From the NCBI GenBank assembly GCA_017307855.1, contig JAFKGD010000007.1:1-64000 (forward strand): 64,000 bases of DNA. Reading direction: 5' to 3'. The position numbers were made by a program, and so were the translations under genes. Of this stretch, positions 3,756-43,193 are shown piece after piece. Position 1 is the first letter of the stretch, and every line of letters starts with the position of its first letter. Origin of the DNA: Burkholderiales bacterium (GTDB lineage Bacteria > Pseudomonadota > Gammaproteobacteria > Burkholderiales > Burkholderiaceae_C). The notes below the pieces were generated by a model that was not told where the DNA came from, did no database searches, and worked only from the letters and a program-made list of their open reading frames with translations.

Positions 3756-3769
3756 TGGAACACAATTCG
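3756..3769 (-). promoter_or_regulatory. Operator-like dyad, site 1 (SDR side)
   Basis: TGGAACACAATTCG. The left half matches the shared TGGAA exactly and the right half is degenerate. On the minus strand it overlaps a TTGACG -35-like hexamer exactly as at 35268, but a good -10 is not evident. It would control the minus-strand SDR unit. Confidence 0.5.
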
Positions 3770-3790
3770 TCAAGCGGAATCTCCCGGTGA

Positions 3791-3832
3791 TTGACCTGAC
3801 AAAGTCCAAGCCATATACTGAATTTAGTTCCA
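3791..3832 (+). promoter_or_regulatory. Sigma-70-like promoter with operator site 2
   Basis: TTGACC (3791-3796), a 17-bp spacer and TATACT (3814-3819) form a strong-looking promoter for the TctC gene at 3912. The dyad TGAATTTAGTTCCA (3819-3832) starts on the last base of the -10, so a bound protein would cover the transcription start. The left half of the dyad has two mismatches to the consensus. Confidence 0.7.
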
Positions 3833-3911
3833 CTGCACGGAACACCAAGGAACCAGAGAACGTTCCACACGGCCGCTCCGAAGGCAGCCCACCTCAACAG
3901 GAGACAGAACC

Positions 3912-4886
3912 ATGCATCACCGCCGCATCGTCCTCGGCGCAGTCCTCGCTGCGGCCGCCTTCATCACAGCGCCCGCGCTGGCCGCAGATCCCTGGCCCTC
4001 GAAGCCGATCCGCATCGTTGTGCCTTACACCCCCGGGGGCCTGACCGACGTGCTGGCGCGCCTGGTGGCCCAGAAGGCCAGCATCACGCTCGGCCAGCCG
4101 ATCGTGATCGAGAACAAGCCGGGCGCCAGCACCGTGATCGGCGCCGAGTTCGTGGCCAGATCGCCTGCCGACGGCTACACGCTGCTGATGTCGGGGACGA
4201 CGACGCTATCGACCAATCCGATCCTGCTGAAGAAGTTGCCCTACAAGACGTCGGATTTCACGCCGGTTGCGCTCATCGGCATGGTTCCCTTCATCGCCGT
4301 GGCGCACCCCTCAGTCCCGGCGAACAACCTGAAGGAACTGGTGGCCTACGCGCAGGCCAACCCGGACAAGCTGACCTACTCGTCGTCCGGCACGGGCACG
4401 TCGTCGCACCTCGTGGGCGAGATGTTCGAATCGGTCACGGGCACGAAGCTGCGCGACATTCCCTACAAAGGCACCAGCCCCGCGCTCACCGCCGTTCTCA
4501 GCGGCGAAGTGTCGATGACCTTCGACGGCGTGACGCTCTACATCCCCCATATCCAGGCCGGCCGTCTCAAGCCCATCGCGTTGTTCGGCGAACAGCGTGT
4601 GACGGGCATCGAGCAGGTCCAGACGATGGTCGAGCAGGGCTACAAGGACGCAATCGCGCTCGCCTGGTTCGGCCTGGTGGCGCCTGCTGGCACACCGCGC
4701 GAAGCCGTCGAGCGCGTCAACGACGCAGTACGCAAGGCGCTCAGCGAGCCGGAGCTGGTGGCCAAGCTGCGCGAGTTCAACGCCTATGTCGAACCCCGCT
4801 CGGCATCGGCATTCGGCGAGCTGATCCAGCGGGAGTCCGCGCTGTGGGGCCGTGTGCTCACACCGCTGAACCTGCAACTCGACTGA
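3912..4886 (+). CDS. TctC/Bug-family periplasmic solute-binding protein (copy 2)
   Basis: 324 residues with a Sec signal peptide likely cut after ALA (residue 24). The mature protein has IRIVVPYTPGGLTD, VIENKPGAST and a conserved PAGTPREAV near the C-terminus, all Bug hallmarks. AGGAGA precedes the ATG. It leads the plus-strand unit TctC-EthD-TctC-OYE-EthD. By eye it is closely similar to the TctC two genes downstream, sharing long stretches such as ADGYTLLM and LVAHPSVPA-like segments, so the pair probably arose by duplication around the small EthD gene. Confidence 0.92.
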   Translation: MHHRRIVLGAVLAAAAFITAPALAADPWPSKPIRIVVPYTPGGLTDVLARLVAQKASITLGQPIVIENKPGASTVIGAEFVARSPADGYTLLMSGTTTLSTNPILLKKLPYKTSDFTPVALIGMVPFIAVAHPSVPANNLKELVAYAQANPDKLTYSSSGTGTSSHLVGEMFESVTGTKLRDIPYKGTSPALTAVLSGEVSMTFDGVTLYIPHIQAGRLKPIALFGEQRVTGIEQVQTMVEQGYKDAIALAWFGLVAPAGTPREAVERVNDAVRKALSEPELVAKLREFNAYVEPRSASAFGELIQRESALWGRVLTPLNLQLD

Positions 4887-4901
4887 CGCCGCGGCCACGC
4901 C

Positions 4902-5252
4902 ATGATCCAGCGCCTCACCCTGATCTACCGCAAGGACGGCATGACGGTCGAGCAGTTCCGCGCCCACTGGCGCGACGTGCACGGCCCGCTTGCCGCCCGC
5001 ACGCCGGGGTTGCGCCGCTACATCCAGCATCACGTCGTGGACGGCCGCTCTCCCAGCAACGTACTGCGGCCCGATGGCATTGCCGAGTTGTGGTTCGACA
5101 CCGAGCAGGACGAGGAAGCGTTCTTCGCCTCCGAACTGGGACGCCTGCAACGCGAGGACGGCCGCAACTTCGTCGGCTTCTCGACCGCCTTCATCGTTCA
5201 GGACCATGAATTCGACCTGGGCCCGTCGGCACCGGGCACCACGCGCGGCTGA
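4902..5252 (+). CDS. EthD-domain protein
   Basis: 116 residues forming one dimeric ferredoxin-like EthD domain. It starts MIQRLTLIYRKDGMTVEQF and has the typical HWRDVHGPLA pattern (residues about 22-31), where the His residues are conserved in the family. EthD proteins accompany degradation operons and some act as cyclases, isomerases or dehydratases; the activity here is unknown. It starts 15 nt after the TctC stop and has only a weak ribosome site, suggesting coupling. It is the simple form of the two-domain EthD protein at the end of the same operon. Confidence 0.85.
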   Translation: MIQRLTLIYRKDGMTVEQFRAHWRDVHGPLAARTPGLRRYIQHHVVDGRSPSNVLRPDGIAELWFDTEQDEEAFFASELGRLQREDGRNFVGFSTAFIVQDHEFDLGPSAPGTTRG

Positions 5253-5276
5253 GGCCCGCACAAGCAGGAAACAAGC

Positions 5277-6272
5277 ATGAACCGACTCGTATCGACCCTC
5301 ACTGCCTTGGCCATGGGGCTGGGCGCCGCACATGCGTACGCGCAGACACCGCCAGCACAGGACGCGCGCACGCGCGCCTTTCCGGAGAAGCCGATCCGCA
5401 TCGTCGTCCCTTACGCGCCCGGTGGCTACACGGACATCGTCGCCCGCCTGGTGGCCGGCAAGATGTCGGACCGCCTGGGCCAGCCGGTGGTGGTCGAGAA
5501 CAAGGCTGGCGCCTCCACCATCGTGGGGGCCGAGTTCGTTGCCAAGTCGCCCGCCGACGGCTACACGCTGTTGATGGCGGTGACGACCACACTGTCGACC
5601 AACCCTTTCATGTTCAGGAAGCTCCCGTACAGGACGGAGGATTTCACGCCGGTCGCGCTGACCGGGCTGACGCCCTTCATCCTGGTGGCGCACCCCTCCG
5701 TGCCGGCCGGCAACGCGAAGGAACTGGTGGCGCTGGCGAAGGCGAAGCCCGGCTCGCTGAACGTGGCCACGCTGGGCGTGGGCGCATCCACGCAACTGGT
5801 GATGGAGATGTTCAAGGCGGCCGCTGGCGTGGACGTGAAAGACGTGCCATACAAGGGATCGGGCCCGGCCAGCACCGACCTGCTGGCCGGACACGTTCAG
5901 CTGTACTTCGATGGCATCACCACTTCGATGCCGCGCGTGCGCGCGGGCCAGCTCAAGGCCATCGGCGTCACCGCGGAGACGCGTTCGCCAGCCGCTCCCC
6001 AGGTGCCGACGTTCGCTGAACAGGGTTTGCCACAGATGGTGGCTTACGCCTGGTACGGGTTGATGGCGCCGGCCGGCACGCCGCCAGGCATTGTCGAGAA
6101 GATCAACAAGGCGACGAATGAAGCGCTGCAGATGCCGGACGTGCGGGCGCAGGTCGACGAGAACGGCGGTACCGCGCCGTTCCTCAGCCCCCAGCAGTTC
6201 GGCAAGCTGATCGACGATCACACGAAGGTGTGGGAGAAGATCATCAAACCGCTGAATATCCAGCTGGACTGA
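5277..6272 (+). CDS. TctC/Bug-family periplasmic solute-binding protein (copy 3)
   Basis: 331 residues. The signal peptide probably ends at AYA-Q (about residue 22) and is followed by a short linker rich in Pro, Gln and Arg before the Bug core IRIVVPYAPGGYTD. AGGAAA precedes the ATG. The sequence is closest to the TctC at 3912, and both lie in the same operon. Having two binding proteins in one transcript suggests two related ligands or a sensory role for one of them. Confidence 0.92.
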   Translation: MNRLVSTLTALAMGLGAAHAYAQTPPAQDARTRAFPEKPIRIVVPYAPGGYTDIVARLVAGKMSDRLGQPVVVENKAGASTIVGAEFVAKSPADGYTLLMAVTTTLSTNPFMFRKLPYRTEDFTPVALTGLTPFILVAHPSVPAGNAKELVALAKAKPGSLNVATLGVGASTQLVMEMFKAAAGVDVKDVPYKGSGPASTDLLAGHVQLYFDGITTSMPRVRAGQLKAIGVTAETRSPAAPQVPTFAEQGLPQMVAYAWYGLMAPAGTPPGIVEKINKATNEALQMPDVRAQVDENGGTAPFLSPQQFGKLIDDHTKVWEKIIKPLNIQLD

Positions 6273-6295
6273 AGCGCCATCGAGGAATCCCACAC

Positions 6296-7375
6296 GTGTC
6301 CCTCCTGTTTTCACCAATCACCCTGCGTGGGCTCACGCTGCGCAATCGTGTCATCGTCTCCCCGATGTGCATGTACTCGACGCCCGAAGGCATTCCGGGC
6401 CCCTGGCACCTGGTGCACCTGGGCAGCCGCGCCATCGGCGGTGCGGGCGCCGTGATGGCCGAAGCAAGCGCCGTATCGCGTGAAGGGCGTATCAGCCCGA
6501 TGGACCTGGGCATCTGGTCGGATGCGCACACCGAGGCCTTCAAGCCCATCGTGCAGTTCATCCGCGAGTCCGGCGCGGTGGCAGCCATTCAGTTGGCCCA
6601 TGCCGGCCGCAAGGCATCCACTGCGGTGCCGTGGCTGGGTCACAAGCCTATCTACGAGGAGGCGAACGGCTGGTTGCCCCTGGGCCCCAGCCCCATCCCC
6701 TATGCCGACGGCTATGCGCCGCCACGGGAGATGAGCCTGGCCGACATCGACAAGGTGGTGGCCGATTTCGCCGCGGCTGCAAGGAGAGCGCATGCGGCCG
6801 GCTTCGAGCTGCTCGAATGCCACATGGGGCACGGCTACCTGCTGCACTCCTTCCTGTCGCCCATCTCCAATCAACGAACCGACGAGTACGGGGGCAGCCT
6901 GGAGAACCGGGCACGCCTCCCATTGCGCGTGGCACGGGCGGTGCGCGAGGTCTGGCCCGAGTCGCTGCCGCTGTTCGTGCGCATCTCGTCCACCGACTGG
7001 ATAGAAGGCGGCTGGGATCTGCCGCAATCCGTGCAGCTCTCGCGCTGGATGAAAGAAATCGGCGTGGACCTGATGGACTGCTCCAGCGGTGCAGTCAACG
7101 CGGCCTCTTCGGTTCCCGCAGCACCGGGATTCCACGTTCCCTTCTCCAGCGCCATCCGCCAGCAGGCGGGCATTGCCACCGGCGCGGTGGGCCTCATCAC
7201 GGAAGCAGTCCAGGCCGAGCAGATCGTGGGCACGGGGCTGGCGGACGTGATCCTCATCGGCCGGGGCTTCCTCGAAGACCCCTATTGGGCGCTGCACGCG
7301 GCACGCAAGCTGCGCGCAGAAGGTGCGTGGCCCCTGCCCTACGCACGCGCTGTGGGCGTGCGGCGCAGCACCTGA
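6296..7375 (+). CDS. NADH:flavin oxidoreductase, old yellow enzyme family (YqjM-like)
   Basis: 359 residues from a GTG start, 23 nt after the TctC stop, with AGGAA upstream; this start puts the OYE core at residue 3. FMN-dependent ene-reductases reduce activated C=C bonds. YqjM-type active-site residues are present: Cys25 and Tyr27 in SPMCMYS, Lys106 in HAGRKA, and His176/His179 in CHMGHGY. The segment SNQRTDEYGGSLENR is the family signature. In this setting it could reduce an alpha,beta-unsaturated ketone or enoyl intermediate, for instance in a ring. Bacterial relatives also act on cyclohexenones; that link is inference. Confidence 0.9.
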   Translation: MSLLFSPITLRGLTLRNRVIVSPMCMYSTPEGIPGPWHLVHLGSRAIGGAGAVMAEASAVSREGRISPMDLGIWSDAHTEAFKPIVQFIRESGAVAAIQLAHAGRKASTAVPWLGHKPIYEEANGWLPLGPSPIPYADGYAPPREMSLADIDKVVADFAAAARRAHAAGFELLECHMGHGYLLHSFLSPISNQRTDEYGGSLENRARLPLRVARAVREVWPESLPLFVRISSTDWIEGGWDLPQSVQLSRWMKEIGVDLMDCSSGAVNAASSVPAAPGFHVPFSSAIRQQAGIATGAVGLITEAVQAEQIVGTGLADVILIGRGFLEDPYWALHAARKLRAEGAWPLPYARAVGVRRST

Positions 7376-7398
7376 GCCTTCGTTGCAAGGAGACCGGC

Positions 7399-8094
7399 AT
7401 GTCCACCAAACGCATCTACCTCACGCGCCGCAACCCCGCCATCGCCGCGCAGGACTTTCCGCGCGAATGGCGCCGCCACGCCGCGCTGGCGGCCAGCTTC
7501 TCCAACGTGGGTCGGCGCTACACGCGCGTGGCGCAATGCACGAAGGCCGAGGACTTCGCGCTCGCTCCGGCCAACGATTACGCGGGCGTGGCCCTGCTGT
7601 GGATGGAAAGCCTGGAGTCCGCGCTCGAGGTGAACACCGATCCCGAGATCGTCGCGCGCCTGCGGCCCGACGAAGTGCGCGTGTTCGGCATGGAGGTCGT
7701 GCACTGCGCGATGTTCACCGAAGAGCGGATTCTCCGGGACGGCCCGGCCACGGGCGTGGTGGTGATCGAGTTCCTGGCGCGTGCGCCAGGCATGTCGCCC
7801 GAGGACTTCGCCGACCGGTGGCAGGCGCACGCCCATCAGGTGCTGGGGCATACCTCGGTGCAGCGGCTGGTCCGCCGCTACGCACAGGACCTGGTGGTTC
7901 GCCAGCCGCCGCCGGGCTATGAGTTCGACGGCGTATCGGAGATGTGGTTCGAAACCGCGGAGGACGCAGCCACCCTGCTGCGGGATCCGCGCTACGTCGA
8001 GGAAGTGGCACAGGCCCGCGAGGGGTTCTGCGACGTGGGCCGGACCGTACTGATGCCGACACGCGTCACGCACGCCTGGTCGGCACCGGCCTGA
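7399..8094 (+). CDS. Two-domain EthD-like protein
   Basis: 231 residues, about twice the length of the EthD protein at 4902. The N-terminal half (about 1-110, with RRNPAIAAQDFPREWRRH) and the C-terminal half (about 115-220, with MSPEDFADRWQAHAHQVLGH) each look like a ferredoxin-like EthD repeat, the second better conserved. AAGGAGA precedes the ATG. It is the last gene of the operon led by the TctC at 3912 and is convergent with the next TctC, 11 bp away. Activity unknown; the partner OYE suggests work on the same intermediate. Confidence 0.75.
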   Translation: MSTKRIYLTRRNPAIAAQDFPREWRRHAALAASFSNVGRRYTRVAQCTKAEDFALAPANDYAGVALLWMESLESALEVNTDPEIVARLRPDEVRVFGMEVVHCAMFTEERILRDGPATGVVVIEFLARAPGMSPEDFADRWQAHAHQVLGHTSVQRLVRRYAQDLVVRQPPPGYEFDGVSEMWFETAEDAATLLRDPRYVEEVAQAREGFCDVGRTVLMPTRVTHAWSAPA

Positions 8095-8105
8095 GAGGCG
8101 CCACC

Positions 8106-9101
8106 TCAGTCGAGCTGCAGGTTCAGTGGCTTGATCACAGGCGTCCAGAAGTCAAGGTCTTTCTGGATGGCGGCCGTGTATTCCTCGGGCGTGCTGCCCT
8201 TGGCGATCGTGCCGTCGGCGAGCAGGGCGTTGCGCAGCTCGTCGGCCGCCGCGACCTGGATGGCAGCCTTGCTCAGCCGTTCCACCACAGCGCGCGGTGT
8301 CTTTGCCGGTGCGAAAAGGCCGAACACGGTGTCGATCGTGAGCGCCGGGTAGCCAAGCTCCTTGAACGTCGGGATCTCGGGCGCCACGGGCGATCGCTGC
8401 TCGCTCGTCACGGCGAACACGCGGATCTTGTTGGCGCGATACATCGGCAACGAAGTGCTGACGGCGTCGAAGTAGAAGGCAAGCCGGCCGCTGAGCAGGT
8501 CCGGCCACACCAGGCCCGTGCCGCGGTAGGGAATGTCGACGCCAGAGATCCTGACCGTCTGCTCGAACATCTTGGACAGCAGATGCGTCGGACCGCCTAC
8601 ACCCAGGATGCCGTAGCTGAGCTTGCCGGGGTTGGCCTGACCGTACTTCACGAGGTCGGACAGCGTCGCCGCGGGCGCGGCCTGGCTGACAGACAGAACG
8701 AAGGGCGCGGCGGCGAAAGTCGATACCGGAGTGAACTCTTCCACCTTGTACGGCACCTTCTTGTAGAGCAGCGGATTCAGCCAGAGCGAAGGTGTGCCGA
8801 CCAGCAGCGTGTAGCCGTCCGGCGCCGACTTGGCCACATACTCCGCGCCGATCATCGTGCCCCCGCCAGGCTTGTTCTCGATGATGACCGGCTGGCCCAG
8901 CAGGGCGCTCATGCGCTGGCCGAACTGTCGCGCGAGAATGTCTGTCGTTCCTCCTGGTGCGAAAGGAACGATGAAGCGGATCGGCTTGTCCGGATAGGCG
9001 GCAGGCGCCTGCGCCGCGCTGGGAGTAGGCAGGCCCGCGGCGAGCACGGTGGACGTCAGTGCTGCAAGCGCGAAACTGCGGCGGGTGATCTGTGTCTTCA
9101 T
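8106..9101 (-). CDS. TctC/Bug-family periplasmic solute-binding protein (copy 4)
   Basis: 331 residues. The leader has TRRSFALAALTST, a good twin-arginine motif, then a cleavable AAQA. The core opens IRFIVPFAPGGTTD and continues VIIENKPGGGTMIGAEY. AAGGAG precedes the ATG. It is the last gene of the minus-strand unit CoA-transferase, NmrA-like, TctC, and starts 9 nt after the NmrA-like stop. The Tat motif is shared with copy 1 but not with copies 2, 3, 5, 6 and 7, so the island mixes export routes. Confidence 0.92.
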   Translation of the reverse strand: MKTQITRRSFALAALTSTVLAAGLPTPSAAQAPAAYPDKPIRFIVPFAPGGTTDILARQFGQRMSALLGQPVIIENKPGGGTMIGAEYVAKSAPDGYTLLVGTPSLWLNPLLYKKVPYKVEEFTPVSTFAAAPFVLSVSQAAPAATLSDLVKYGQANPGKLSYGILGVGGPTHLLSKMFEQTVRISGVDIPYRGTGLVWPDLLSGRLAFYFDAVSTSLPMYRANKIRVFAVTSEQRSPVAPEIPTFKELGYPALTIDTVFGLFAPAKTPRAVVERLSKAAIQVAAADELRNALLADGTIAKGSTPEEYTAAIQKDLDFWTPVIKPLNLQLD

Positions 9102-9110: not shown

Positions 9111-10013
9111 TCAGTGTTGTGGCGCGGCCGGCACACCCTGCCGAAGCCGCTCCAGGTTTTTTCTCGCGAACTCGGGCCATCGCGTGCCCGCACGGCCGGT
9201 GACCTTGAGCACCGTGCCGTGGACGGTACTGGCGTCCTCGCCCTCTCCCCCCGCACCGGCTGCCGTACCGGCAGCGAGGCTGGCCGCGTAGACCGGCTCC
9301 ATGCCGGACTTGAGCAGCGCGGGCAGCAACTGGTCGGCAGAGCGGCTCTGAGCGATGTACGGCAGGCCGGATTCCCTGGCCAGCACAGCCGCCACGCCCT
9401 CCATGTCCAGAGCGTCCTCGCACAGCGGGTAGGTGCGGCCGGCATGACGCGCCGGATCCAGCAGCGCCTCGGCGGCGACACTGGCGATGTCGTCGACATC
9501 GATCCACCCGACGGGTGAATCACCATGGTAGTGACGCAGCTGCAGGGAACCCGGACGCAGCGTCGCCAGCACGTTCTGCATGAAAGCGCGCGGTCTCAGT
9601 TCCGTATGCGGCAGGCCCAGCCGCTCCATGTAGGCTTCGACATAGTCGTGCCAGACGAAATGGGGAAGGTGGCTGTCGCGCGGACCGAGCGCGCCCAGAT
9701 GCACCACCTGCCGCACGCCGGCGTCGCGCGCGGCATCGAGCGCAAGCCTGGCATGCACCAGCATGTCGACCGTGTAGCCCGTGCACAGGAAGAGCCGGTC
9801 GACGCCCGCCATGCACGCGCGGACGGTGTTCGGGTCGCGATAGTCGAAGACCACGCATTCGACTCCCTTAGCGGCGAAGGCACGGCGTTGCGCTTCGGAG
9901 CGTGCGGTGGCGAGCAGCGTGTGGCCGGTCGCACGCGGATCGGACAGCAGGCGCGCGATCAGTGCGCCACCGACAGTGCCGGTCGCGCCGGTAACGAGGA
10001 TGCGGCTGCCCAT
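9111..10013 (-). CDS. NmrA-like NAD(P)-binding protein (atypical SDR)
   Basis: 300 residues. GATGTVG (residues 9-15) is the dinucleotide-binding glycine motif near the N-terminus, followed by a Rossmann pattern; WIDVDDIA and a C-terminal substrate lobe are typical of NmrA/HSCARG-type proteins. The classical Tyr-x-x-x-Lys pair is not obvious, so it may be a redox sensor, an NADPH-dependent quinone reductase-like protein or a binding protein rather than a dehydrogenase. It lies between a CoA-transferase (14 nt away) and a TctC gene (9 nt away), so it is surely co-transcribed. Function within the pathway unknown. Confidence 0.8.
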   Translation of the reverse strand: MGSRILVTGATGTVGGALIARLLSDPRATGHTLLATARSEAQRRAFAAKGVECVVFDYRDPNTVRACMAGVDRLFLCTGYTVDMLVHARLALDAARDAGVRQVVHLGALGPRDSHLPHFVWHDYVEAYMERLGLPHTELRPRAFMQNVLATLRPGSLQLRHYHGDSPVGWIDVDDIASVAAEALLDPARHAGRTYPLCEDALDMEGVAAVLARESGLPYIAQSRSADQLLPALLKSGMEPVYAASLAAGTAAGAGGEGEDASTVHGTVLKVTGRAGTRWPEFARKNLERLRQGVPAAPQH

Positions 10014-11218: not shown

Positions 11219-11545
11219 TGGCTGTGTCTCCAAATACTCCCGACCGTTGACGGGCAAAATAATGGTATCAGTTCCATCAAGTGGATGGCAAGCACGTTAA
11301 CGAGCTTCTGTCATGGTCGCCGGTTTCCATTGGCCCCCATTGGGAAAACCCTCTTGGCCGGAAGGCCGTCCGCCCAGGAGAATCGATCGGCGAACGTTGG
11401 CACGCAGGCAAATGAATCGTTCCATTCAGTGGATTTGATATCTCTGAGTGGAACTTTTATTGACATCACGCGAGAGGCCGCATTACGATCGCCGCGACCA
11501 AGACCTTCCCCATCCACCCCGACTTCCATGACATCCCGAGGCCAC
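11219..11545. other. Divergent intergenic region, 327 bp
   Basis: It separates the CoA-transferase and crotonase operons. I see one operator-like dyad near the CoA-transferase (11263-11276) and several loose TTCCA/TGGAA half-sites at 11420-11453, including TTGATA-N17-TATTGA (11435-11463) that could be a weak plus-strand promoter. No protein-coding frame here looks genuine. Confidence 0.5.
11263..11276 (-). promoter_or_regulatory. Operator-like dyad, site 3
   Basis: TGGTATCAGTTCCA, 45 bp before the CoA-transferase ATG. It is almost the same as site 7 (TGGCATCAGTTCCG), which precedes another TctC gene. A TTGATG -35-like hexamer overlaps it on the minus strand; the -10 is unclear. Confidence 0.6.
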
Positions 11546-12349: not shown

Positions 12350-12363
12350 GGAGCCACGCACCG

Positions 12364-14669: not shown

Positions 14670-14701
14670 GGCACGCGCCCGCATTCACGGAAACACGACA
14701 C

Positions 14702-16727: not shown

Positions 16728-16770
16728 CGGAACTTATTCCATTAGACTGCAGCACACCCCGCCCTGTAAA
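16728..16770 (-). promoter_or_regulatory. Minus-strand promoter with operator site 4
   Basis: Reading on the minus strand: TTTACA (16770-16765), an 18-bp spacer, TCTAAT (16746-16741), then the dyad. On the plus strand the dyad is CGGAACTTATTCCA (16728-16741), with only one base away from perfect symmetry. It abuts the -10, 25 bp before the crotonase ATG, and is also 68 bp upstream of the divergent SDR gene at 16810, so it may serve both. Confidence 0.75.
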
Positions 16771-18372: not shown

Positions 18373-18418
18373 AGGAATTCATTCCAAAAATACTATCGAC
18401 CTGGGCACTGCCCCACAA
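18373..18418 (-). promoter_or_regulatory. Minus-strand promoter with operator site 5
   Basis: On the minus strand TTGTGG (18418-18413), a 17-bp spacer and TAGTAT (18395-18390) are followed after 3 bp by the dyad, read on the plus strand as AGGAATTCATTCCA (18373-18386). The core GGAATTCATTCC is a near-perfect GGAA-N4-TTCC. It would control the SDR gene at 18340. Confidence 0.7.
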
Positions 18419-18451: not shown

Positions 18452-18495
18452 TTGACACCCGAGATGGGCACACCTAGTATTCGAAATCAATTCCG
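18452..18495 (+). promoter_or_regulatory. Strong promoter with operator site 6
   Basis: TTGACA (18452-18457), a 17-bp spacer and TAGTAT (18475-18480): a consensus -35 and a good -10. One base later comes the dyad CGAAATCAATTCCG (18482-18495), covering the expected start of transcription for the TctC-led operon at 18536. Confidence 0.8.
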
Positions 18496-18535
18496 TCAGA
18501 TGAATTCGACACAACAAAGAAGCAGGAGACAAGCG

Positions 18536-19507: not shown

Positions 19508-19526
19508 GCTCGCACGAAGGAAGCAC

Positions 19527-20768: not shown

Positions 20769-20788
20769 GCGCCAGCGTGGTCAGGTCG

Positions 20789-21556: not shown

Positions 21557-21574
21557 CTGCGCACGAGGATCGAC

Positions 21575-22579: not shown

Positions 22580-22584
22580 CGCCC

Positions 22585-25219: not shown

Positions 25220-25326
25220 GGAAATTCCTCGTTTTCATCGGCTCGGACGGGGGAAGGGACTGCGGCGCGTGCCGGGCGCTTCGCCTTGCCGGAGGCGATG
25301 CATGGAACGTAGCCAATTCCACTTTA

Positions 25327-25351
25327 TGGCATCAGTTCCGAAAAAATACTA
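25327..25351 (-). promoter_or_regulatory. Operator site 7 and -10, between TctC and iclR-type gene
   Basis: The dyad TGGCATCAGTTCCG (25327-25340) lies 5 bp after a minus-strand TAGTAT -10 (25351-25346); no good -35 is evident. It sits in the 275-bp region between the TctC gene and the IclR gene and could serve control of TctC and autoregulation. Confidence 0.6.
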
Positions 25352-28118: not shown

Positions 28119-28148
28119 TGTATCACAACGGAACACGATCCACAGAAA
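28119..28148 (-). promoter_or_regulatory. Minus-strand promoter with operator site 8
   Basis: Minus strand: TTTCTG (28148-28143), 18-bp spacer, GATACA (28124-28119) with an upstream TGT. The dyad CGGAACACGATCCA (28129-28142) fills most of the spacer, next to the -35, as at 35268 and 40972. It would control the hydrolase-CMD pair. Confidence 0.6.
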
Positions 28149-28173
28149 GGAATCACCATGCATTGAGTGACGA

Positions 28174-28219
28174 TTGACGCGGCATGCAGCACAAAAGCAT
28201 AATTGCGGAATTAAATCCA
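28174..28219 (+). promoter_or_regulatory. Promoter with operator site 9
   Basis: TTGACG (28174-28179), an 18-bp spacer and CATAAT (28198-28203) precede the dyad CGGAATTAAATCCA (28206-28219) by 2 bp. It drives the OB-fold/thiolase/SDR/MaoC operon that starts at 28240. Confidence 0.7.
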
Positions 28220-28239
28220 ATAGACGGAACAACAAGAAC

Positions 28240-29774: not shown

Positions 29775-29809
29775 GCCCGCAAACCACACGTCATCGACAG
29801 GATCGTTCC

Positions 29810-30733: not shown

Positions 30734-30745
30734 CCAGCGACGCAG

Positions 30746-31609: not shown

Positions 31610-31624
31610 CGGACCCGCCCGCGC

Positions 31625-32014
31625 TCAGGCCAGCGCGAAACGGGCCAGCGCCACTCCATCCACTGTCTGGATCGCCAGGCGCACCGGTGCGTCGCACGCC
31701 AGGGCGTCGTGGGCATCGACCATGTTGGTGATGAGCCGAGGTCCCTCGTCGAGCTCGACCACGGCCACGTTGTAGGGCAGCCGGTCCTTGAACGCGTCGC
31801 TGTAAGCCGTGTGGTAGACCACCCAGCTCACCAGGCGGCCGCCGCCGCCCGCCTCTTCCCAGTGCAGCCGGTCACCCAGGCACCGGGGACATTCACGCCG
31901 CGCGGGCAACCACGCATGGCCACAGGCGCAGCGCATGTACAGCAAGCGCCCTTCGCGCAGGGCGTCCCAGTACGGGCGCGTGATTTCGGTCACTTCGGGG
32001 GCAGGAATCGGCAT
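31625..32014 (-). CDS. Zn-ribbon/OB-fold (DUF35) protein
   Basis: 129 residues. N-terminal helix TRPYWDALREGRLLY, then a rubredoxin-like zinc ribbon with CAC (about 29-31) and CPRC, then the OB-fold with VVYHTAYSDAF and RLPYNVAVVELDEGPRL. It is the partner of the thiolase-like gene that ends 3 bp before its ATG. GGGAG precedes the start. It is the last gene of the minus-strand unit ACAD, crotonase, thiolase-like, OB-fold. Confidence 0.9.
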   Translation of the reverse strand: MPIPAPEVTEITRPYWDALREGRLLYMRCACGHAWLPARRECPRCLGDRLHWEEAGGGGRLVSWVVYHTAYSDAFKDRLPYNVAVVELDEGPRLITNMVDAHDALACDAPVRLAIQTVDGVALARFALA

Positions 32015-32017
32015 GGA

Positions 32018-35156: not shown

Positions 35157-35198
35157 TGGTATTTGTTCCATTCTACAAAACCAATACCGTTTATTCAA
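35157..35198 (-). promoter_or_regulatory. Minus-strand promoter with operator site 10
   Basis: Minus strand: TTGAAT (35198-35193), exactly 17 bp, TAGAAT (35175-35170). The dyad, plus strand TGGTATTTGTTCCA (35157-35170), begins on the last -10 base and covers the start point. It controls the acyl-CoA dehydrogenase operon at 35142. Confidence 0.8.
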
Positions 35199-35267
35199 CA
35201 AGAGATGCATACGGATTTCCCTGAACTCCTAAGCGAGACTGTTGCCGATCTTCCGTCTTGATTTCAT

Positions 35268-35297
35268 TTGACGGAATATATTCCGATTACCTAGAAT
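35268..35297 (+). promoter_or_regulatory. Promoter with perfect operator site 11
   Basis: TTGACG (35268-35273), 18-bp spacer, TAGAAT (35292-35297). The dyad CGGAATATATTCCG (35272-35285) is a perfect 14-bp palindrome overlapping the -35 and lying in the spacer. The flanking sequence is nearly the same at 40972. It drives the TctC-synthetase-dehydrogenase operon at 35410. Confidence 0.85.
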
Positions 35298-36379: not shown

Positions 36380-38581
36380 ATGGCTGCATCGATTCCGTCT
36401 CGTCCTCTCTACAGCCACGACCAGCTCCGCCGGCTGCTGGAGCCCCGCTCCATCGCCATCGTCGGTGTTTCCAGCAACGCTTCGGGCTTCGGCTCGACCA
36501 CGCTGGCGAACATCACGGCCCCGGGGCGCTTCGAGGGCAATGTCTACCGCGTGAACGCGCGCCTCGAGGCGCTCGATGGCCACCGCTGCTATCCCTCCGT
36601 GGCGGACCTGCCCGAGGCACCCGATTGTGTTTTCATCGCCGCGCCGCGAGCCTCTGTTCCGTCGATCCTGCAGGACTGCATCCGGCGCGGCGCAGGTGGT
36701 GTGGTGATGTATGCGTCGGGCTACGCGGAGACTGGCGATCCCATCCACACCAGCGAGCAACAGGCGCTGGTGGCCACCACCCGTGCCGCCGGCATCCCGC
36801 TGCTGGGGCCCAACTGCATGGGCTACATCCACTACGGCATCGGGGCGGTCGGCACGTTCGCCGCATCCAGCTTCAGGGGCAAGCCGCAGGCGCCGGCCAT
36901 CGGACTGATCAGCCAGTCGGGCGCCATCGGCGCGGCGCTGGCGCAGGCCATCGACCGTGGCGTGGTGCTCAGCCACATGCTCACATGCGGAAACGCCGGC
37001 GATGTCGACGCCGCCGACCTGGTGAACTATCTGGCAGCCGACCCGCGCTGCAGCGCAGTGGCTTGCGTCTTCGAAGGCATGGCAGACCCGACGCGCTTCC
37101 TGGCCGCAGCTGCCGCGTGCAGCGCCCTCGGCAAACCGCTGGTAGTGCACAAGCTCGGCACCAGCGAGCGCGGAGCACAGGCCGCCGCGTCGCACACCGG
37201 TTCTGTCGCCGGCTCGCAGGCCGCCTACCGCGCAGCATTCGCCCAGGCCGGCGTGGTGCTGGTCGATGAACTCGAAGCGCTCATCGACACCTGTTCGTTC
37301 TTCGCCAAGGCAAGACGCCCGCTGGCGCGCGGCGTGGCGGGTGCAGCGGTATCGGGGGGAGCCTGCATCCTGCTGGCCGACCAGGCCGAAGCCGGGGGCA
37401 TCGCACTGCCGCCGCCTGCAGCCGACACGCTGGCCGCACTGCGTCCGCTGATTCCCGACTATGGCTCACCGGGCAACCCCTGCGACATGACGGCGCAGGT
37501 GCTGGCGACGCCCGGACACCAGATCGCCTGCTTCGACGCTTTACTGTCCGACGCACAGTACGGTGCGCTGGTGGTGCCTCATACCACCGCGAGTGGTGCC
37601 GTAGGCGGTCGGCTCGAGGCCCTCGACGGGGTGGCGGCGCGGCACGGAAAGATCGCCTGCAACGTCTGGCTGACGCAGCATCCTGAAGAGGCAGGCGCCA
37701 TCGATGCGGAGCGGCATACGCACGTCGCTTCGTTCCGCTCGATGCGCCACTGCGTGGAGGCGCTGGCCGCGTGGCATCGCCGCACGGACTGGCTCGAAAG
37801 TCAGGCGGAGGTCGCCCCGGCGCTGGTGCCCTGCACGTCGCGCGCGCAAGCGGCGGCCCTGATCGCAGCCTCGCCCAACGACACGCTGACGGAGCGCGAG
37901 GGCAAGGCCGTGCTGGCGAGCTATGGCATCGCCGTGGCGCGCGACGTGCTCGCGCGCAGCGCTGCCCGGGCAGCCGACGCCGCACAGGAGCTGGGCTTTC
38001 CGGTCGTTCTGAAGATCGAATCGCCCGACATCCCCCACAAGACAGAGGCCGGTGGCGTGCGGCTGAACCTGCGCACGGCCGAAGATGTCTGCGACGCTTT
38101 CGACGCGATCGTGGCCAGCGTCCGCGCCAGGGCACCGGGTGCGCGCATCGACGGCGTGCTGGTGCAGCCGATGGTGACGTCCGGCACCGAGATCATGGTG
38201 GGCGGGCGCATCGATCCGCAGTTCGGCGCCATCGTGGTCGCGGGCCTGGGCGGCGTATTCGTGGAGCTGCTGCGCGACACCGCCGTCCGGCTAGCGCCGG
38301 TCAGTCCGGCCCAGGCGCGCGGCATGCTCCTGGAACTGAAGGCGCAGAGCGTTCTGCGCGGCTTCCGTGGGGCGCCGCCGGTCGACGTGGACCGGCTGGC
38401 CGACACGATCGCACGCGTATCAGAACTGCTTCACGACCAGCGCGGGCTGATCGCCGAGCTCGATGTGAATCCGCTGATCTGCGCCGGAGACCGCGTCATG
38501 GCGGTCGACGCGCTGCTGGTCCGCGCCCCTGCAAATCCCATCGCGTCACAGCACGCCGTGCTGATGGAGCCTGCTGAATGA
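36380..38581 (+). CDS. NDP-forming acyl-CoA synthetase (acetate-CoA ligase family), copy 1
   Basis: 733 residues joining three parts: a CoA-binding domain (about 15-140, LEPRSIAIVGVSS), a succinyl-CoA-ligase-like domain (about 150-300, LISQSGAIGAAL) with the phospho-histidine His272 in ASHTGSVAGS, and an ATP-grasp domain (about 500-720, FPVVLKIESPDIPHKTEAGGV). It makes an acyl-CoA from acid, CoA and ATP or GTP. It would activate the acid bound by the TctC encoded 13 bp upstream. Its stop overlaps the next start by 4 bp. Confidence 0.92.
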   Translation: MAASIPSRPLYSHDQLRRLLEPRSIAIVGVSSNASGFGSTTLANITAPGRFEGNVYRVNARLEALDGHRCYPSVADLPEAPDCVFIAAPRASVPSILQDCIRRGAGGVVMYASGYAETGDPIHTSEQQALVATTRAAGIPLLGPNCMGYIHYGIGAVGTFAASSFRGKPQAPAIGLISQSGAIGAALAQAIDRGVVLSHMLTCGNAGDVDAADLVNYLAADPRCSAVACVFEGMADPTRFLAAAAACSALGKPLVVHKLGTSERGAQAAASHTGSVAGSQAAYRAAFAQAGVVLVDELEALIDTCSFFAKARRPLARGVAGAAVSGGACILLADQAEAGGIALPPPAADTLAALRPLIPDYGSPGNPCDMTAQVLATPGHQIACFDALLSDAQYGALVVPHTTASGAVGGRLEALDGVAARHGKIACNVWLTQHPEEAGAIDAERHTHVASFRSMRHCVEALAAWHRRTDWLESQAEVAPALVPCTSRAQAAALIAASPNDTLTEREGKAVLASYGIAVARDVLARSAARAADAAQELGFPVVLKIESPDIPHKTEAGGVRLNLRTAEDVCDAFDAIVASVRARAPGARIDGVLVQPMVTSGTEIMVGGRIDPQFGAIVVAGLGGVFVELLRDTAVRLAPVSPAQARGMLLELKAQSVLRGFRGAPPVDVDRLADTIARVSELLHDQRGLIAELDVNPLICAGDRVMAVDALLVRAPANPIASQHAVLMEPAE

Positions 38582-39786
38582 ATCTGGACTACTCGGAAAA
38601 AGAAGAAGCGTTCCGCGCCGAGGTGCGCGCTTTCCTCAGGGACAAGCTGCCCGCCGCACTGGCGGCCAAGGTGCGCGACCGCAGGCGGCTCGAGCGCGAG
38701 GACTTCCTGCAGTGGCAACGCATCCTGCACGCTCAGGGCTGGGGAGCGTCGGCCTGGCCACAGTCCTTCGGCGGACCGGGCTGGGGCGCGGTCGAGCGCA
38801 ACATCTTCGATGAGGAATGTTCACGCGCGCACGCCCCGGTGCAGGTGTCGTTCGGGGTAAAGATGGTGGCGCCCGTCATCATGCAGTTCGGCAGTCCCGA
38901 GCAACAGCAGCAGCACCTGCCAGGCATCATTGGCGGCACGACCTGGTGGTGCCAGGGCTATTCGGAACCCGGCGCCGGCTCCGACCTCGCTTCACTGCGC
39001 ACAAGCGCAGTGCGCGACGGCGACGACTACATCGTGAACGGGCAGAAAATGTGGACCACGATGGCGCATCACGCCGACTGGATCTTCTGCCTCGTACGCA
39101 CCGATCGCGAAGCTCGCAAGCAGGAGGGCATCAGCTTCCTGCTCATCGACATGAAGACGCCCGGCATCACGGTGCGCCCCATCTGGCTGATGGATGGCGA
39201 GCGCGAAGTCAATGAAGTTTTCTTCGACAACGTGCGGGTCCCCGTGGCGAACCGGATCGGCGAGGAGAACAAGGGCTGGACCTATGCCAAGTACCTGCTG
39301 GGGCACGAGCGCACCATCTCCTCGGGAGTGGGCTGGTCGAAGGTCACACTCTCCCGCCTCAAGCAGCTGGCGCGGCGCCAACCGGGAGACGACGGCCGGC
39401 CGCTGATCGAGGACGCACGATTCCGCGACCGGATTGCTCAAGCAGAACTGGAGCTCATGGCGCTGGACGCCACGGTGCTCAAGATCGTCGCCCAGGAGGG
39501 CCGCGCCATGGCGCCAGGGCCTGAGGCTTCGATCCTCAAGTTCAAGGGCACGCAGTTGCAGCAGCAGCTGACGGAGTTGCTCATGACGGCGACGGGAGCG
39601 TACGCGCTGCCCTACCTGCCGGGAGTACGAACGGGCGACGTCCCCGACGACGCTCTCGAGGCCGGCCTCGAGAGCGCGGACTACACGTGGACAGCCATGT
39701 ACTTCAACTATCGAAAGACCACCATCTACGGTGGTTCCGACGAAGTGCAGCGCACCATCATCGCCAAGCACATCCTCGGACTTTGA
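38578..39786 (+). CDS. Acyl-CoA dehydrogenase, large-subunit type (pimeloyl-CoA dehydrogenase-like)
   Basis: 402 residues. WCQGYSEPGAGSDLASLRTSA, GQKMWTTMAHHADW, a long insertion near 240-260 (ERTISSGVGWSK) and the end TIYGGSDEVQRTIIAKHILGL match the large subunit of pimeloyl-CoA-type dehydrogenases (PimC). It starts in the stop of the synthetase gene. Its neighbour 14 bp downstream is the matching small subunit, so the two probably form a heterotetramer that desaturates a dicarboxylyl- or branched acyl-CoA. The dicarboxylate link is from family resemblance only. Confidence 0.9.
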   Translation: MNLDYSEKEEAFRAEVRAFLRDKLPAALAAKVRDRRRLEREDFLQWQRILHAQGWGASAWPQSFGGPGWGAVERNIFDEECSRAHAPVQVSFGVKMVAPVIMQFGSPEQQQQHLPGIIGGTTWWCQGYSEPGAGSDLASLRTSAVRDGDDYIVNGQKMWTTMAHHADWIFCLVRTDREARKQEGISFLLIDMKTPGITVRPIWLMDGEREVNEVFFDNVRVPVANRIGEENKGWTYAKYLLGHERTISSGVGWSKVTLSRLKQLARRQPGDDGRPLIEDARFRDRIAQAELELMALDATVLKIVAQEGRAMAPGPEASILKFKGTQLQQQLTELLMTATGAYALPYLPGVRTGDVPDDALEAGLESADYTWTAMYFNYRKTTIYGGSDEVQRTIIAKHILGL

Positions 39787-39800
39787 GAAACGGATCCACC

Positions 39801-40937
39801 ATGGACTTCGAGTTCAGCGCCGAGCAGGACGCACTTCGCGACAGCCTGCGGCGCTATCTGCAGAACCACTACAGCTTCGAACAGCGTCGTGCTGTCCTCA
39901 GGAGCGAATCGGGAGACAACCCCAAGGCCTGGGCGGCCTTCGCGGACATGGGATTGCTGGGTCTGGCTATTCCGCAGGACATGGGGGGCATGGGGGGCAC
40001 AGGCATCGACATCCTGCTGGCGATGGAGCTCTTCGGCGAACACCTGGCTCTGGAGCCCTATCTTGCGACCGTCGTGCTGGGCGCAGGCATCCTGCGCGAT
40101 GCGGGCTCTCCTGCGCAGCGCGCTTTGTTGCCCCACGTCGTGGCCGGCGAGATCAGGCTGGCGCTGGCGCACCAGGAGCCCCAGGTACGAGCCATCGATG
40201 GCATCGTCCGCACGCAAGCCACACGGCTGGCCGATGGCGGATGGCGGCTGGATGGGCACAAAGCCGTGGTGCTGGGCGCCCCTGCGGCGGACTACCTGCT
40301 CGTGTCAGCCACCACCCGCACCGGCCAGGCCAGTGTCTTCATGCTCGAGCGCGCGACACCCGGGCTGCGCCTGCATGCCTACGCCAATCACGACGGTCAG
40401 CGCGCCGCCGACGTTTTCCTCGACAACGTGGCCGTGCCGGCCGATGCGCTGGTCGGCCAGGCGGGCGATGGCATGGCCATCGTCGAGCGCGCGCTCCAGG
40501 AAGCCAACGCCGCGCTGTGTTGCGAGGCCGTCGGCGTGATGGATGCCCTGAACCGGCAGACGCTGGAGTACCTCAAGACGCGCAAGCAGTTCGGCGTCGC
40601 CATTGGTAGCTTCCAGGCGCTGCAGCACCGGATGGCCGACATGACTGTCGCCACCTTCCAGGCTCGCTCCATGGCACTCCTGGTCAGCGCTCGGCTGCAC
40701 GTTGCATCGCCCGCCGAGCGCGCACGGCTGGTGTCGGCTGCCAAGGCCTATGTGTGCCAGCAGGCCCGCTTCGTCGGCCAGCAGGCGGTTCAGCTGCATG
40801 GCGGCATGGGCATCGCCGATGAGTTGATCACCGGACATTACTTCAAGCGGCTGACCCTCATCGGGCAGACCTTTGGCGATGCGCAGTATCACCTGGGACG
40901 CTTCAGCGCCACTCTGCTGGAGACAGAAGCGACGTGA
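39801..40937 (+). CDS. Acyl-CoA dehydrogenase, small-subunit type (pimeloyl-CoA dehydrogenase-like)
   Basis: 378 residues. FSAEQDALRDSLRRYLQNHY, TLEYLKTRKQFGVAIGSFQALQH and AVQLHGGMGIADEL are typical of PimD-like small subunits, which lack the C-terminal QIQR motif. The beta-domain is reduced (LAHQEPQVRAIDG), with no TESxAGSD-like motif. It ends the operon that starts with TctC at 35410, 34 bp before the next promoter region. Confidence 0.9.
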   Translation: MDFEFSAEQDALRDSLRRYLQNHYSFEQRRAVLRSESGDNPKAWAAFADMGLLGLAIPQDMGGMGGTGIDILLAMELFGEHLALEPYLATVVLGAGILRDAGSPAQRALLPHVVAGEIRLALAHQEPQVRAIDGIVRTQATRLADGGWRLDGHKAVVLGAPAADYLLVSATTRTGQASVFMLERATPGLRLHAYANHDGQRAADVFLDNVAVPADALVGQAGDGMAIVERALQEANAALCCEAVGVMDALNRQTLEYLKTRKQFGVAIGSFQALQHRMADMTVATFQARSMALLVSARLHVASPAERARLVSAAKAYVCQQARFVGQQAVQLHGGMGIADELITGHYFKRLTLIGQTFGDAQYHLGRFSATLLETEAT

Positions 40938-40971
40938 CGGCCAAGAGGAGCCTCATCGCTGGACATTTCAT

Positions 40972-41001
40972 TTGACGGAACTTGTTCCGATTTAATAGAA
41001 T
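40972..41001 (+). promoter_or_regulatory. Promoter with operator site 12
   Basis: TTGACG (40972-40977), 18-bp spacer, TAGAAT (40996-41001), with CGGAACTTGTTCCG (40976-40989) overlapping the -35. The geometry is the same to the base as at 35268, including the ATTTCA just upstream of the -35. It drives the FadB-like gene 33 bp later. Confidence 0.85.
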
Positions 41002-41034
41002 CCAGCCAGGAACCGACACGAGACTGATCCCGCT

Positions 41035-43140
41035 ATGACGACAGACAGCAACTACGCAATCCACGGCAGCACAGCGGTCATCTACCTGGACAACCCGCCC
41101 GTGAACAGTCTGGGCCATGCGCTGCGCGTCCAGCTGGACGCGCACCTGAGGGCCGCCATCGACGATCCTTCCGTCGACAGCGTGGTCATCACCGGCCGGG
41201 GCAAGTTGTTCTGCGGCGGCGCCGACGTGAAGGCGTTCAACACCCCGATGTCGCGCGCCGAGCCCAGTTCACGCTCCATCATTGCCAGGATCGAGGCCGG
41301 CACCATGCCCGTGGTGGCGGCCATCCACGGCAATGCGCTGGGCCTGGGACTGGAATTCGCCATGAGCTGCCATTACCGGGTGGCCTCGCCAGGCGCGCGG
41401 CTCGGTCTGCCTGAAGTCAAGCTGGGCCTGCTGCCCGGTGGCGGCGGCACGCAGCGCCTGCCGCGCCTGGTGGGCGCACAGGCTGCGTTGCGCATGATCA
41501 CCACCGGCGATGCCGTGGACTCGCGCGAGGCGCTGGAGCTGGGCCTGATCGACGAACTGATCGAAGGCGACCTTGTCGAGGGCGCTGTCGCATTCGCACG
41601 GCGTATCGTCAGTCAGGCGCCACATCGCGTCACTTCGCGCATGCGCGCAGAGCCGGTCGACACCGAGGGGAGCACGACCGCCTTCTTTGCGGCCCAACGC
41701 GCCGTACTCGAGAGGGACAGGCGCGGCCTGGCCGCGCCGCGCGAATGCCTGGCCTGCGTGGAAGCCGCCTACAGACTGCCCTTCGACGAGGGCATGGCCT
41801 TCGAGCGCGAGCGCTTCGATGTGCTGGTCAACAGCGTCGAGTCCAAAGCCATGCGTCACCTTTTCTTCGCCGAGCGCGCCGCGGCCAGGGTGGAGGGCGT
41901 CGCACCCGACACGGCGCAGCGCCCGATCAGGCACGTGGCAGTGTTGGGCGCAGGCACCATGGGCGGCGGCATCGCCATGAGCTTCGCCAGCGCGGGCTTC
42001 CAGGTCAGCCTGATCGAGTCGAAGCCCGAGGCGCTGGAGCGCGGTCTGGGCAACATCCGCAAGAACTACGCCTCCACCGTCTCGAAGGGCCGGCTTTCGC
42101 AGGCGGATGTCGACGCACGGATCGCACGCATCGGCGGCACGCTGGACTTCCAGGCGGTTGCGCAGGCAGACCTGGTGATCGAGGCGGTGTTCGAGGACAT
42201 GGCGGTCAAGAAGGAAGTCTTCGAGAAGCTCGACGCCGCCTGCAAGCCCGGCGCCGTGCTGGCCACCAACACGTCGCGGCTGGACGTGAACACCATCGCC
42301 AGCTTCACGCGGCGACAACAGGATGTGATCGGCCTGCATTTCTTCAGCCCCGCCAACGTGATGCGCCTGGTGGAAGTCGTGCGTGGCCAGGCCACATCGC
42401 CTGAAGTGATCGCCACCTGTCTGTCGGTAGTGCGCAAGATCGGCAAGCTGCCCGTGGTCGTGGGCGTGTGTGACGGATTCGTCGGCAACCGGATGGTGAG
42501 CCACTACGCGCGCGAAGCCGAATTCCTCCTCGAAGAAGGCGCTACCCCGCAGCAGGTGGACAGGGCGCTCCAGGACTTCGGCCTGGCGATGGGACGCTTC
42601 GCCATGACCGACCTGGCAGGCCTGGACATCGGATGGGCCAGCCGCAAGCGCCTGGCGCCCACACGGCCGGCGCACCTGCGCTATTCGAAAGTGGCCGACC
42701 GCATCTGCGAGATGGGCCGGTTCGGCCAGAAGACGGGCGCGGGGTATTACCGTTACGAGTCCGGCAGCCGCACACCGATTCCTGATCCTGAGATCGACGC
42801 AGTGATCGCCGCCTGTGCGGCGGAGGCCGGTATCGAGCGGCGCCCCATCAGCGACGAGGAGATCGTCGAGCGCACCATGTACGCGCTGATCAACGAAGGC
42901 GCGAAGATCCTGGAGGAAGGCGTGGTGCAGCGTGCCTCGGACATCGACCTCATCTATGTCAACGGGTATGGCTTCCCGGCCCGCCGAGGCGGTCCCATGT
43001 TCCTGGCCGACACCATCGGGCTGGCCAAGGTGTACGCGCGGATATGCCAGTTCCACGCGACACATGGCGAATGGTGGAAGCCCTCGGCGCTGCTACAGCG
43101 CCTGGCCGAAGGCGGCAAGACCTTCGCAAAGCCCGAGTAA
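41035..43140 (+). CDS. Bifunctional enoyl-CoA hydratase / 3-hydroxyacyl-CoA dehydrogenase (FadB-like)
   Basis: 701 residues. The crotonase domain (about 1-190) has NPPVNSLGHALR, FCGGADVKAFN and GLPEVKLGLLPGGGGTQRL, with the first catalytic Glu present and Arg at the second (AALRMITTGD). The NAD domain starts near residue 300 with VAVLGAGTMGGGIAMS and is followed by the HFFSPANVMRLVEVV catalytic-His segment and two C-terminal helical 3HCDH repeats. It hydrates enoyl-CoA and oxidises the (S)-3-hydroxyacyl-CoA. PimF-like enzymes have this layout. No fadA-type thiolase follows. Confidence 0.95.
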   Translation: MTTDSNYAIHGSTAVIYLDNPPVNSLGHALRVQLDAHLRAAIDDPSVDSVVITGRGKLFCGGADVKAFNTPMSRAEPSSRSIIARIEAGTMPVVAAIHGNALGLGLEFAMSCHYRVASPGARLGLPEVKLGLLPGGGGTQRLPRLVGAQAALRMITTGDAVDSREALELGLIDELIEGDLVEGAVAFARRIVSQAPHRVTSRMRAEPVDTEGSTTAFFAAQRAVLERDRRGLAAPRECLACVEAAYRLPFDEGMAFERERFDVLVNSVESKAMRHLFFAERAAARVEGVAPDTAQRPIRHVAVLGAGTMGGGIAMSFASAGFQVSLIESKPEALERGLGNIRKNYASTVSKGRLSQADVDARIARIGGTLDFQAVAQADLVIEAVFEDMAVKKEVFEKLDAACKPGAVLATNTSRLDVNTIASFTRRQQDVIGLHFFSPANVMRLVEVVRGQATSPEVIATCLSVVRKIGKLPVVVGVCDGFVGNRMVSHYAREAEFLLEEGATPQQVDRALQDFGLAMGRFAMTDLAGLDIGWASRKRLAPTRPAHLRYSKVADRICEMGRFGQKTGAGYYRYESGSRTPIPDPEIDAVIAACAAEAGIERRPISDEEIVERTMYALINEGAKILEEGVVQRASDIDLIYVNGYGFPARRGGPMFLADTIGLAKVYARICQFHATHGEWWKPSALLQRLAEGGKTFAKPE

Positions 43141-43146
43141 GTCATC

Positions 43147-43193
43147 TTGACGCCCCGAAAAGCCCTTTCCTATCATGTTCGGATGCAATTCCG
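43147..43193 (+). promoter_or_regulatory. Promoter with operator site 13
   Basis: TTGACG (43147-43152), 18-bp spacer, TATCAT (43171-43176), then 3 bp and the dyad CGGATGCAATTCCG (43180-43193). It begins only 7 bp after the FadB-like stop and drives the CoA-transferase operon. Confidence 0.7.

Follow-up and report, generated by a model that had tools for sequence, protein, structure and literature searches.

The 64,000-nucleotide stretch analysed here (the window; positions 1 to 64,000 of contig JAFKGD010000007.1 from a Burkholderiales bacterium, assembly GCA_017307855.1) carries a 45-kb catabolic gene cluster, hereafter the island, in which copies of a 24-bp site composed of three short boxes, approximately YGRAA-N4-TTYCR-N5-YGRAA, are found at 13 places. 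Judging from sequence comparisons, these sites are very likely the operators to which the IclR-family product of the gene at 25495 binds, a protein that would repress nearly all units of the island. The motif, its concentration in the island, its position at predicted promoters and its co-occurrence with the clade of this regulator are established by computation, while the identity of the binding protein, repression rather than activation, the nature of the inducer and the oligomeric state are inferred.

A first-pass annotation had described the sites as a 14-bp dyad, (T/C)GGAA-N4-TTCC(A/G), at 13 places. The three-box description differs from that list in three respects: it adds a site at 11420-11443, moves the dyad at 35157 into the register 35166-35189 and treats 18373 as no more than a weak candidate (Table 1). 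The third box played no part in the choice of the listed places; when both orientations of each were examined, a third GGAA half-site with at most one mismatch was found at offset +19 in 9 of the 13, whereas 130 other offsets average 1.3 such places, with 5 at most. The spacing is also constrained within the nine operator-bearing gaps (1542 bases), where, at up to one mismatch, YGRAA-N4-TTYCR is counted 14 times and TTYCR-N5-YGRAA 11 times, against 0-5 and 0-6 at other spacings. Both the 11420-11443 site and the 35166-35189 register surfaced from a scan with a matrix of ten window sites. Scored by a matrix built without the site in question (leave-one-out, LOO), all 13 three-box sites reach 19.8-33.0 bits, whereas the best score among 229,782 background positions from the same genome is 17.3-18.4, and 150 dinucleotide shuffles of the AT-richer gaps yield two positions in total at or above 19.5. 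The direction of the three boxes alternates, and 25 sites, 12 from the window and 13 from loci with an orthologous regulator, align without gaps (alignment A1, which omits 11420-11443 of the window and two ortholog sites, L049:13016 and L051:6546).

The shorter dyad is real as a tendency and insufficient as a definition. A GGAA/TTCC-like dyad is present at all 13 listed places, but only three (16728, 35272 and 40976) fit the consensus exactly; eight more have one mismatch, and the remaining two, 3756 and 3819, have more than one and retain six of the eight core bases. The window contains three exact dyads where 0.15 are expected, and 16 with at most one mismatch where 4.4 are expected, neither number being equalled in 100 shuffles. 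Eight of the 16 are either absent from the original list or situated outside promoters; five of the one-mismatch dyads (6384, 10934, 11359, 30704 and 54295) were not on the original list. GGAA-N4-TTCC is also the most enriched of 2816 gapped dyads in the AT-richer DNA of the island (12 against 1.1; 4540 bases, eight resampled controls). Across the genome, however, the exact dyad occurs at 20 places, three of them in the window, and the pattern read backwards at 39, so that the dyad, though enriched in the island, is unspecific by itself and was dropped as a sufficient description of the operator. The statement that no site lies to the right of 47.9 kb is correct for the exact pattern but not for the one-mismatch site at 54295. 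As written, 18373 and 35157 have scores equalled by 7 and 4 of the 229,782 background positions, and 18373, at 13.9 bits in the LOO test, was rejected as a full operator. This weak dyad contains a TAGTAT box that precedes an ATG of the minus-strand gene SDR3 by seven bases; if the box is real, the SDR3 transcript would be nearly leaderless. The original interpretation thus survives as one family of sites that is concentrated in the island and accompanies the IclR gene elsewhere, but not in its 14-bp form, its stated consensus or the site at 18373.

The whole genome comprises 4,991,047 bases, and the contig numbered C14 opens with the 64 kb of the window. A 15-base three-box pattern allowing two mismatches has 41 matches in the genome, ten within the 39 kb from 3756 to 43203 and 31 scattered, and its reversed control has 45. 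With at most one mismatch, four of the six genome matches fall in the island. The other two are C2:570219 and C2:186804, the former of which was left out of the regulon in view of its neighbours, which encode a DctP-type binding protein, a helix-turn-helix (HTH)-cupin protein and a beta-lactamase-fold protein, and of its score of at most 13.1 bits with the 25-site matrix. In this region (locus L110, contig C2, at about 569-570 kb), two GGAA/TTCC dyads are present, at 8930-8953 and 9720-9743 of the locus, before the DctP-type gene and between the HTH-cupin and beta-lactamase-fold genes, and these may serve a different regulator. The 25 sites were also turned into a profile (R1), which hence favours its training sites; it gives nine genome matches at E ≤10, all in the island, after scoring of 150 of 594 first-look candidates.

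The protein at 25495 is the likely binder because the motif accompanies its orthologs and stands before some of the same genes. Six betaproteobacterial contigs (L046-L051) encode an IclR protein of 62-76% identity, and its first HTH region is nearly identical between the window protein and the orthologs, as is, very nearly, the recognition helix. The ten-site matrix, derived from the window alone without ortholog data, finds nine matches of at least 23.5 bits in five of these contigs (L046, L047, L048, L049 and L051), whereas the controls reach no more than 17.6 (144,577 bases) and, for two distant actinobacterial loci, 14.7. The 13-site window matrix finds 11 matches of at least 19.5 bits in 99,168 bases of ortholog contigs and none in any of six shuffles. 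Ranked ab initio among the 2816 dyads, TTCC-N6-GGAA comes first and TTCC-N7-GGAA third in the ortholog loci, where GGAA-N4-TTCC is 59th and GGAA-N5-TTCC eighth (815th in the window); the pair formed by boxes 2 and 3 is thus better conserved than that formed by boxes 1 and 2. In the reverse direction, 20 places of the window score at least 10 bits with a matrix of 13 ortholog sites, every one of them in a gap that bears an operator (3.7 to 43.2 kb); they include 12 of the 13 window sites, leaving out 28129, in a test that is not fully independent, the ortholog sites having been picked with the window matrix.

The genes behind the sites recur as well. Operators precede ACD4 in all four ortholog loci that show its start, and strong sites are found before FadJ in two of four and before CaiB3 in two of three. 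ECH1, ACD2, ACD3 and the IclR gene occur together in five of the six contigs, and ACD4-ECH4-thiolase2, FadJ-like, CaiB and AcsL genes are present in most of them; the second EthD protein has no counterpart among the matches listed for the related loci. Directly before the IclR start, sites of 17.5, 14.8, 10.0 and 23.5 bits are found in L047, L048, L049 and L051, respectively. Around IclR proteins of 40-46% identity, sites of 15.6-21.0 bits lie in a gap no more than 3 kb from the IclR gene in five of six loci, L104 having none above 10.1, and in three loci these weaker sites adjoin the IclR gene directly; since such scores overlap the top of the controls, the evidence from these relatives is only suggestive.

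The regulator belongs to the IclR family, with 44.0 bits for PF09339 and 99.7 for PF01614, both over the cut-off, and its nearest solved chains are IclR-type (E 6.5e-21). It is the sole regulator among the island open reading frames (ORFs) scanned with Pfam, as had been proposed. It is neither a member of the PcaR/PcaU/PobR model TIGR02431 (110.3 against a cut-off of 284.75) nor equivalent to Escherichia coli IclR (NF008601, 41.8 against 380).

ORFs grouped by strand and gap, a reading of the ORFs rather than of mapped transcripts, divide the interval from 211 to 47849 into 15 units, not counting the regulator; 14 of these have a three-box site in front, the one at 16728 serving two. A simple sigma-70 scan of positions 1-47990 yields nine promoter-like matches (4 + 0 + 5), where shuffles lead one to expect about 4.5. 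All nine fall in gaps that bear an operator, and eight of them overlap an operator or sit within three bases of one. As most operators overlap a predicted core promoter, repression relieved by an acid of the pathway or its coenzyme A (CoA) ester is the most likely mode of action. A dimer, or a tetramer making use of the third box, would sit on the three alternating 5-bp boxes and keep RNA polymerase off the sigma-70-type promoters of nearly all island units; release of the regulator by the acid or CoA-ester would then switch on uptake proteins and beta-oxidation-like enzymes together.

The same regulator might instead work on the three-box sites mainly as an activator or in a dual manner, as PcaU and PobR do, recruiting polymerase in the presence of the inducer. 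We regard this as unlikely, even if it deserves some weight: activators and dual regulators are described in the IclR family (PMC8222616), the ECH1 operator is placed at about -76..-53 by the better of its promoters, and the operators at 35262 and 40966 reach -42. At 3819, 18482, 28206 and 43180, however, the operator covers the predicted transcription start of promoters that already seem good (scores of 11.0-12.7), which fits blocking better than recruiting.

Several observations weigh against repression by the 25495 protein. The position of the ECH1 operator misfits simple occlusion, and ECH1 may be an exception in sign or mechanism. Promoter predictions are weak to moderate at 3756, 25317 and 28129, SDR3 has only the weak 18373 dyad, and 28129 stays below 10 bits with the ortholog-only matrix. 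Profile R1 missed four of the 13 sites (3819, 11420, 28129 and 43180) despite having been trained on 12 of them, and L050, a 6.6-kb contig with a 64% identical ortholog, has no site above 9.1 bits. Finally, there is no operator above 4 bits directly before the window's own IclR gene, although regulators of this kind commonly act on their own gene, and the genome has 22 IclR-like matches, so that a sister protein could bind too. These last two points also favour the idea that the real binder is another regulator encoded elsewhere in the genome, for instance another IclR-like protein, and that the adjacent IclR gene is incidental. We consider this improbable, given that the motif accompanies orthologs of the 25495 protein in five of six contigs and, in weaker form, its 40-46% relatives in five of six loci, whereas a stricter pattern is about as frequent as its control in 59 relatives that lack a close ortholog (14 matches against 8), the corresponding counts in the own genome being 5 and 0. 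That the sites are a by-product of AT-rich promoter DNA is barely credible: the -35 box TTGACG falls inside the motif at some sites, and at 35262 and 40966 the linker TCAA, read on the opposite strand, forms part of that box, yet at 3819, 18482, 28206 and 43180 the -35 box lies elsewhere and the boxes keep the same spacing, shuffled AT-richer gaps almost never yield such scores, and equal frequency at unrelated promoters is not seen in the genome pattern and R1 profile scans.

A further regularity, noticed after the fact, is that box 1 faces the promoter element of the gene served at 11 of the 13 sites, the exceptions being 35166 and 16728, and does so on whichever side of the -10 box the operator lies; for three of the 11 the promoter prediction is weak or moderate, and for 25317 it is the second-best one. 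One IclR protein might thus hold some 14 of the 15 units through asymmetric, directional three-box operators with an unusually tight 19-bp spacing between boxes 1 and 3, a proposal that we advance tentatively and rate at somewhat less than an even chance. If true, the direction rule would imply that the bound protein complex is asymmetric and turns one side preferentially to polymerase.

Three-box IclR operators are already published. Suvorova and Gelfand (2021; PMC8222616) predict, for 32 orthologous groups of IclR proteins, three-box sites whose boxes alternate in direction, naming PcaU, PobR and HmgR as cases and noting that PcaU requires the third box to bind. The operators described here share the three alternating boxes and the half-boxes YGRAA/TTYCR with those of that survey, which deals with 181 orthologous groups, and the TTYC-N7-GRAA pair agrees with its group 1 consensus, GKTYCRYW3-4RYGRAMC. 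The group 2 consensus, TGRAACAN1-2TGTTYCA, leaves 5-6 bases between the halves and does not fit GGAA-N4-TTCC; in the window gaps, N4 between boxes 1 and 2 is counted 14 times and N5 four times. What is new relative to the consensuses given there is this shorter inner spacing of N4 rather than N5-6, and the distance of 19 bp between boxes 1 and 3 is a further difference. PcaU, PobR and HmgR have in common with the present system an inverted pair with an external direct half-site and their association with catabolic clusters; they differ in having boxes of TTCG/TCCG types (PMC8222616), and the protein here scores under the TIGR02431 cut-off. The halves TGGAA/TTCCA do resemble those of the E. coli IclR box, as first suggested, but the box listed in the table of the survey, TGGAAATNATTTCCA, has five bases between the halves instead of four and a consensus without a third box (PMC8222616), and E. 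coli IclR was rejected as a model on spacing and protein score. ATTCC-N7(5)-GGAAT, given for GenR of Corynebacterium glutamicum, matches the box 2-box 3 pair as TTCC-N7-GGAA; the table states no three-box site for GenR, which belongs to another pathway and phylum (PMC8222616).

As a rule, an IclR regulator acts on its own gene and on one or two neighbouring operons, but regulogs with as many as 55 COGs are reported as well (PMC8222616). The single regulator of the island seemingly holds about 14 units over 40 kb, so that, with the principle known, the example is probably an unusually large and tidy one, in which a 45-kb acid-degrading cluster carries about 13 operators for one regulator. No described system or regulon of this gene content was found in the open-access literature, excluding supplementary lists; TctC (COG3181) and the OB-fold family (COG1545), both present here, are among the genes tied to IclR regulons in the survey (PMC8222616). 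The 13 natural operator variants, together with those of five related contigs, make the use of the third box directly testable in vitro. Because the regulon delimits one pathway, the genes bearing operators belong together, which helps to find the substrate.

Table 1. Sites, regulator and transcription units of the island. LOO, leave-one-out score; Ort, score with the ortholog-only matrix (both in bits); operator positions with signs are relative to the predicted transcription start.
Feature	Position	Strand	Context	LOO	Promoter and remarks
Three-box operator, TGGAA-caca-ATTCG-tcaag-CGGAA	3756..3779	+	before SDR1-TctC1-MFS	21.8	minus-strand promoter, moderate (7.2); operator -41..-18
Three-box operator	3819..3842	+	before TctC2 unit	19.9	TTGACC-17-TATACT; operator -7..+17, on predicted start; Ort 14.9
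Three-box operator	11263..11286	+	before CaiB1-NmrA-TctC4	25.3	TTGCCA-18-TACCAT; operator -31..-8
Three-box operator, not in first list	11420..11443	-	before ECH1 unit	23.7	better promoter TTGACA-18-TACGAT (11460-11489); operator upstream, about -76..-53; Ort 13.0
Weaker second register of 11420	11430-11453	+			Ort 19.1
Operator, third box degenerate	16728..16751	+	common to divergent ECH2 (-) and SDR2 (+)	19.8	exact dyad
Weak candidate dyad, no third box	18373..18386		start of SDR3 (-)	13.9	
Three-box operator	18482..18505	+	before TctC5 unit	28.2	TTGACA-17-TAGTAT; operator -5..+19, on predicted start
Three-box operator (first listed as 25327)	25317..25340	-	before TctC6-SDR5	24.8	weak promoters (5.1, 4.5); IclR gene 155 bp away on other side
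Three-box operator	28129..28152	+	before ABH-CMD	20.6	weak promoter (4.0)
Three-box operator	28206..28229	+	before OB1 unit	29.8	TTGACG-18-CATAAT; operator -4..+20, on predicted start
Three-box site	35166..35189	-	before ACD4 unit	21.5	TTGAAT-17-TAGAAT; operator -26..-3; first-listed dyad 35157-35170 overlaps
Three-box operator	35262..35285	-	before TctC7 unit	33.0	TTGACG-18-TAGAAT; operator -42..-19, over -35 box and spacer; contains palindrome 35272
Three-box operator	40966..40989	-	before FadJ-like	32.1	TTGACG-18-TAGAAT; operator -42..-19, over -35 box and spacer
Three-box operator	43180..43203	+	before CaiB3 unit	20.9	TTGACG-18-TATCAT; operator -3..+21, on predicted start; Ort 12.2
IclR-family regulator, 295 aa	25495..26382	+	PF09339 HTH_IclR and PF01614 IclR_C		
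Unit SDR1-TctC1-MFS	3713 down to 211	-			
Unit TctC2-EthD-TctC3-OYE-EthD	3912-8094	+			
Unit CaiB1-NmrA-TctC4	11257 down to 8106	-			
Unit ECH1-ACD1-ACD2-ACD3	11546-15916	+			
Divergent units ECH2 and SDR2		- and +	16728 operator in shared gap		
Unit SDR3		-	start at 18373 dyad		
Unit TctC5-CaiB2-ECH3-ADH-SDR4	18536-23367	+			
Unit TctC6-SDR5		-			
Unit ABH-CMD	28107 down to 26379	-			
Unit OB1-thiolase1-SDR6-MaoC	to 31609	+			
Unit ACD4-ECH4-thiolase2-OB2	35142 down to 31625	-			
Unit TctC7-AcsL1-ACD5-ACD6	to 40937	+			
Unit FadJ-like	41035-43140	+			
Unit CaiB3-ACD7-AcsL2	to 47849	+			

The Pfam-assigned products of the island include seven TctC-type binding proteins, family III CoA-transferases, many acyl-CoA dehydrogenases, enoyl-CoA hydratases, SDRs, two thiolase/OB-fold pairs, a FadJ-like protein and two ATP-grasp CoA ligases. 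All seven genes for TctC-type solute-binding proteins lie in one cluster (1846-36366), and no membrane partner of a tripartite tricarboxylate transporter is encoded among the island ORFs scanned. Acyl-CoA dehydrogenase genes form adjacent pairs or triples at 12214-15916 and 38578-40937; ACD2 reaches 279 bits with the model of the pimeloyl-CoA dehydrogenase large subunit, under the cut-off of 624. The two thiolase genes are each paired with a gene for an OB-fold protein of the ChsH2 C-terminal type, the separate pairs lying on opposite strands within 28174-33154. The G+C content varies little along the cluster (0.654-0.681 per 4 kb) and is near that of the core, and thus gives no compositional sign of recent import. 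As the window begins at the first base of its contig, the cluster may extend to the left past the assembly break; its right edge is marked by a tRNA-Ser (cga) gene on the minus strand at 47914-48001.

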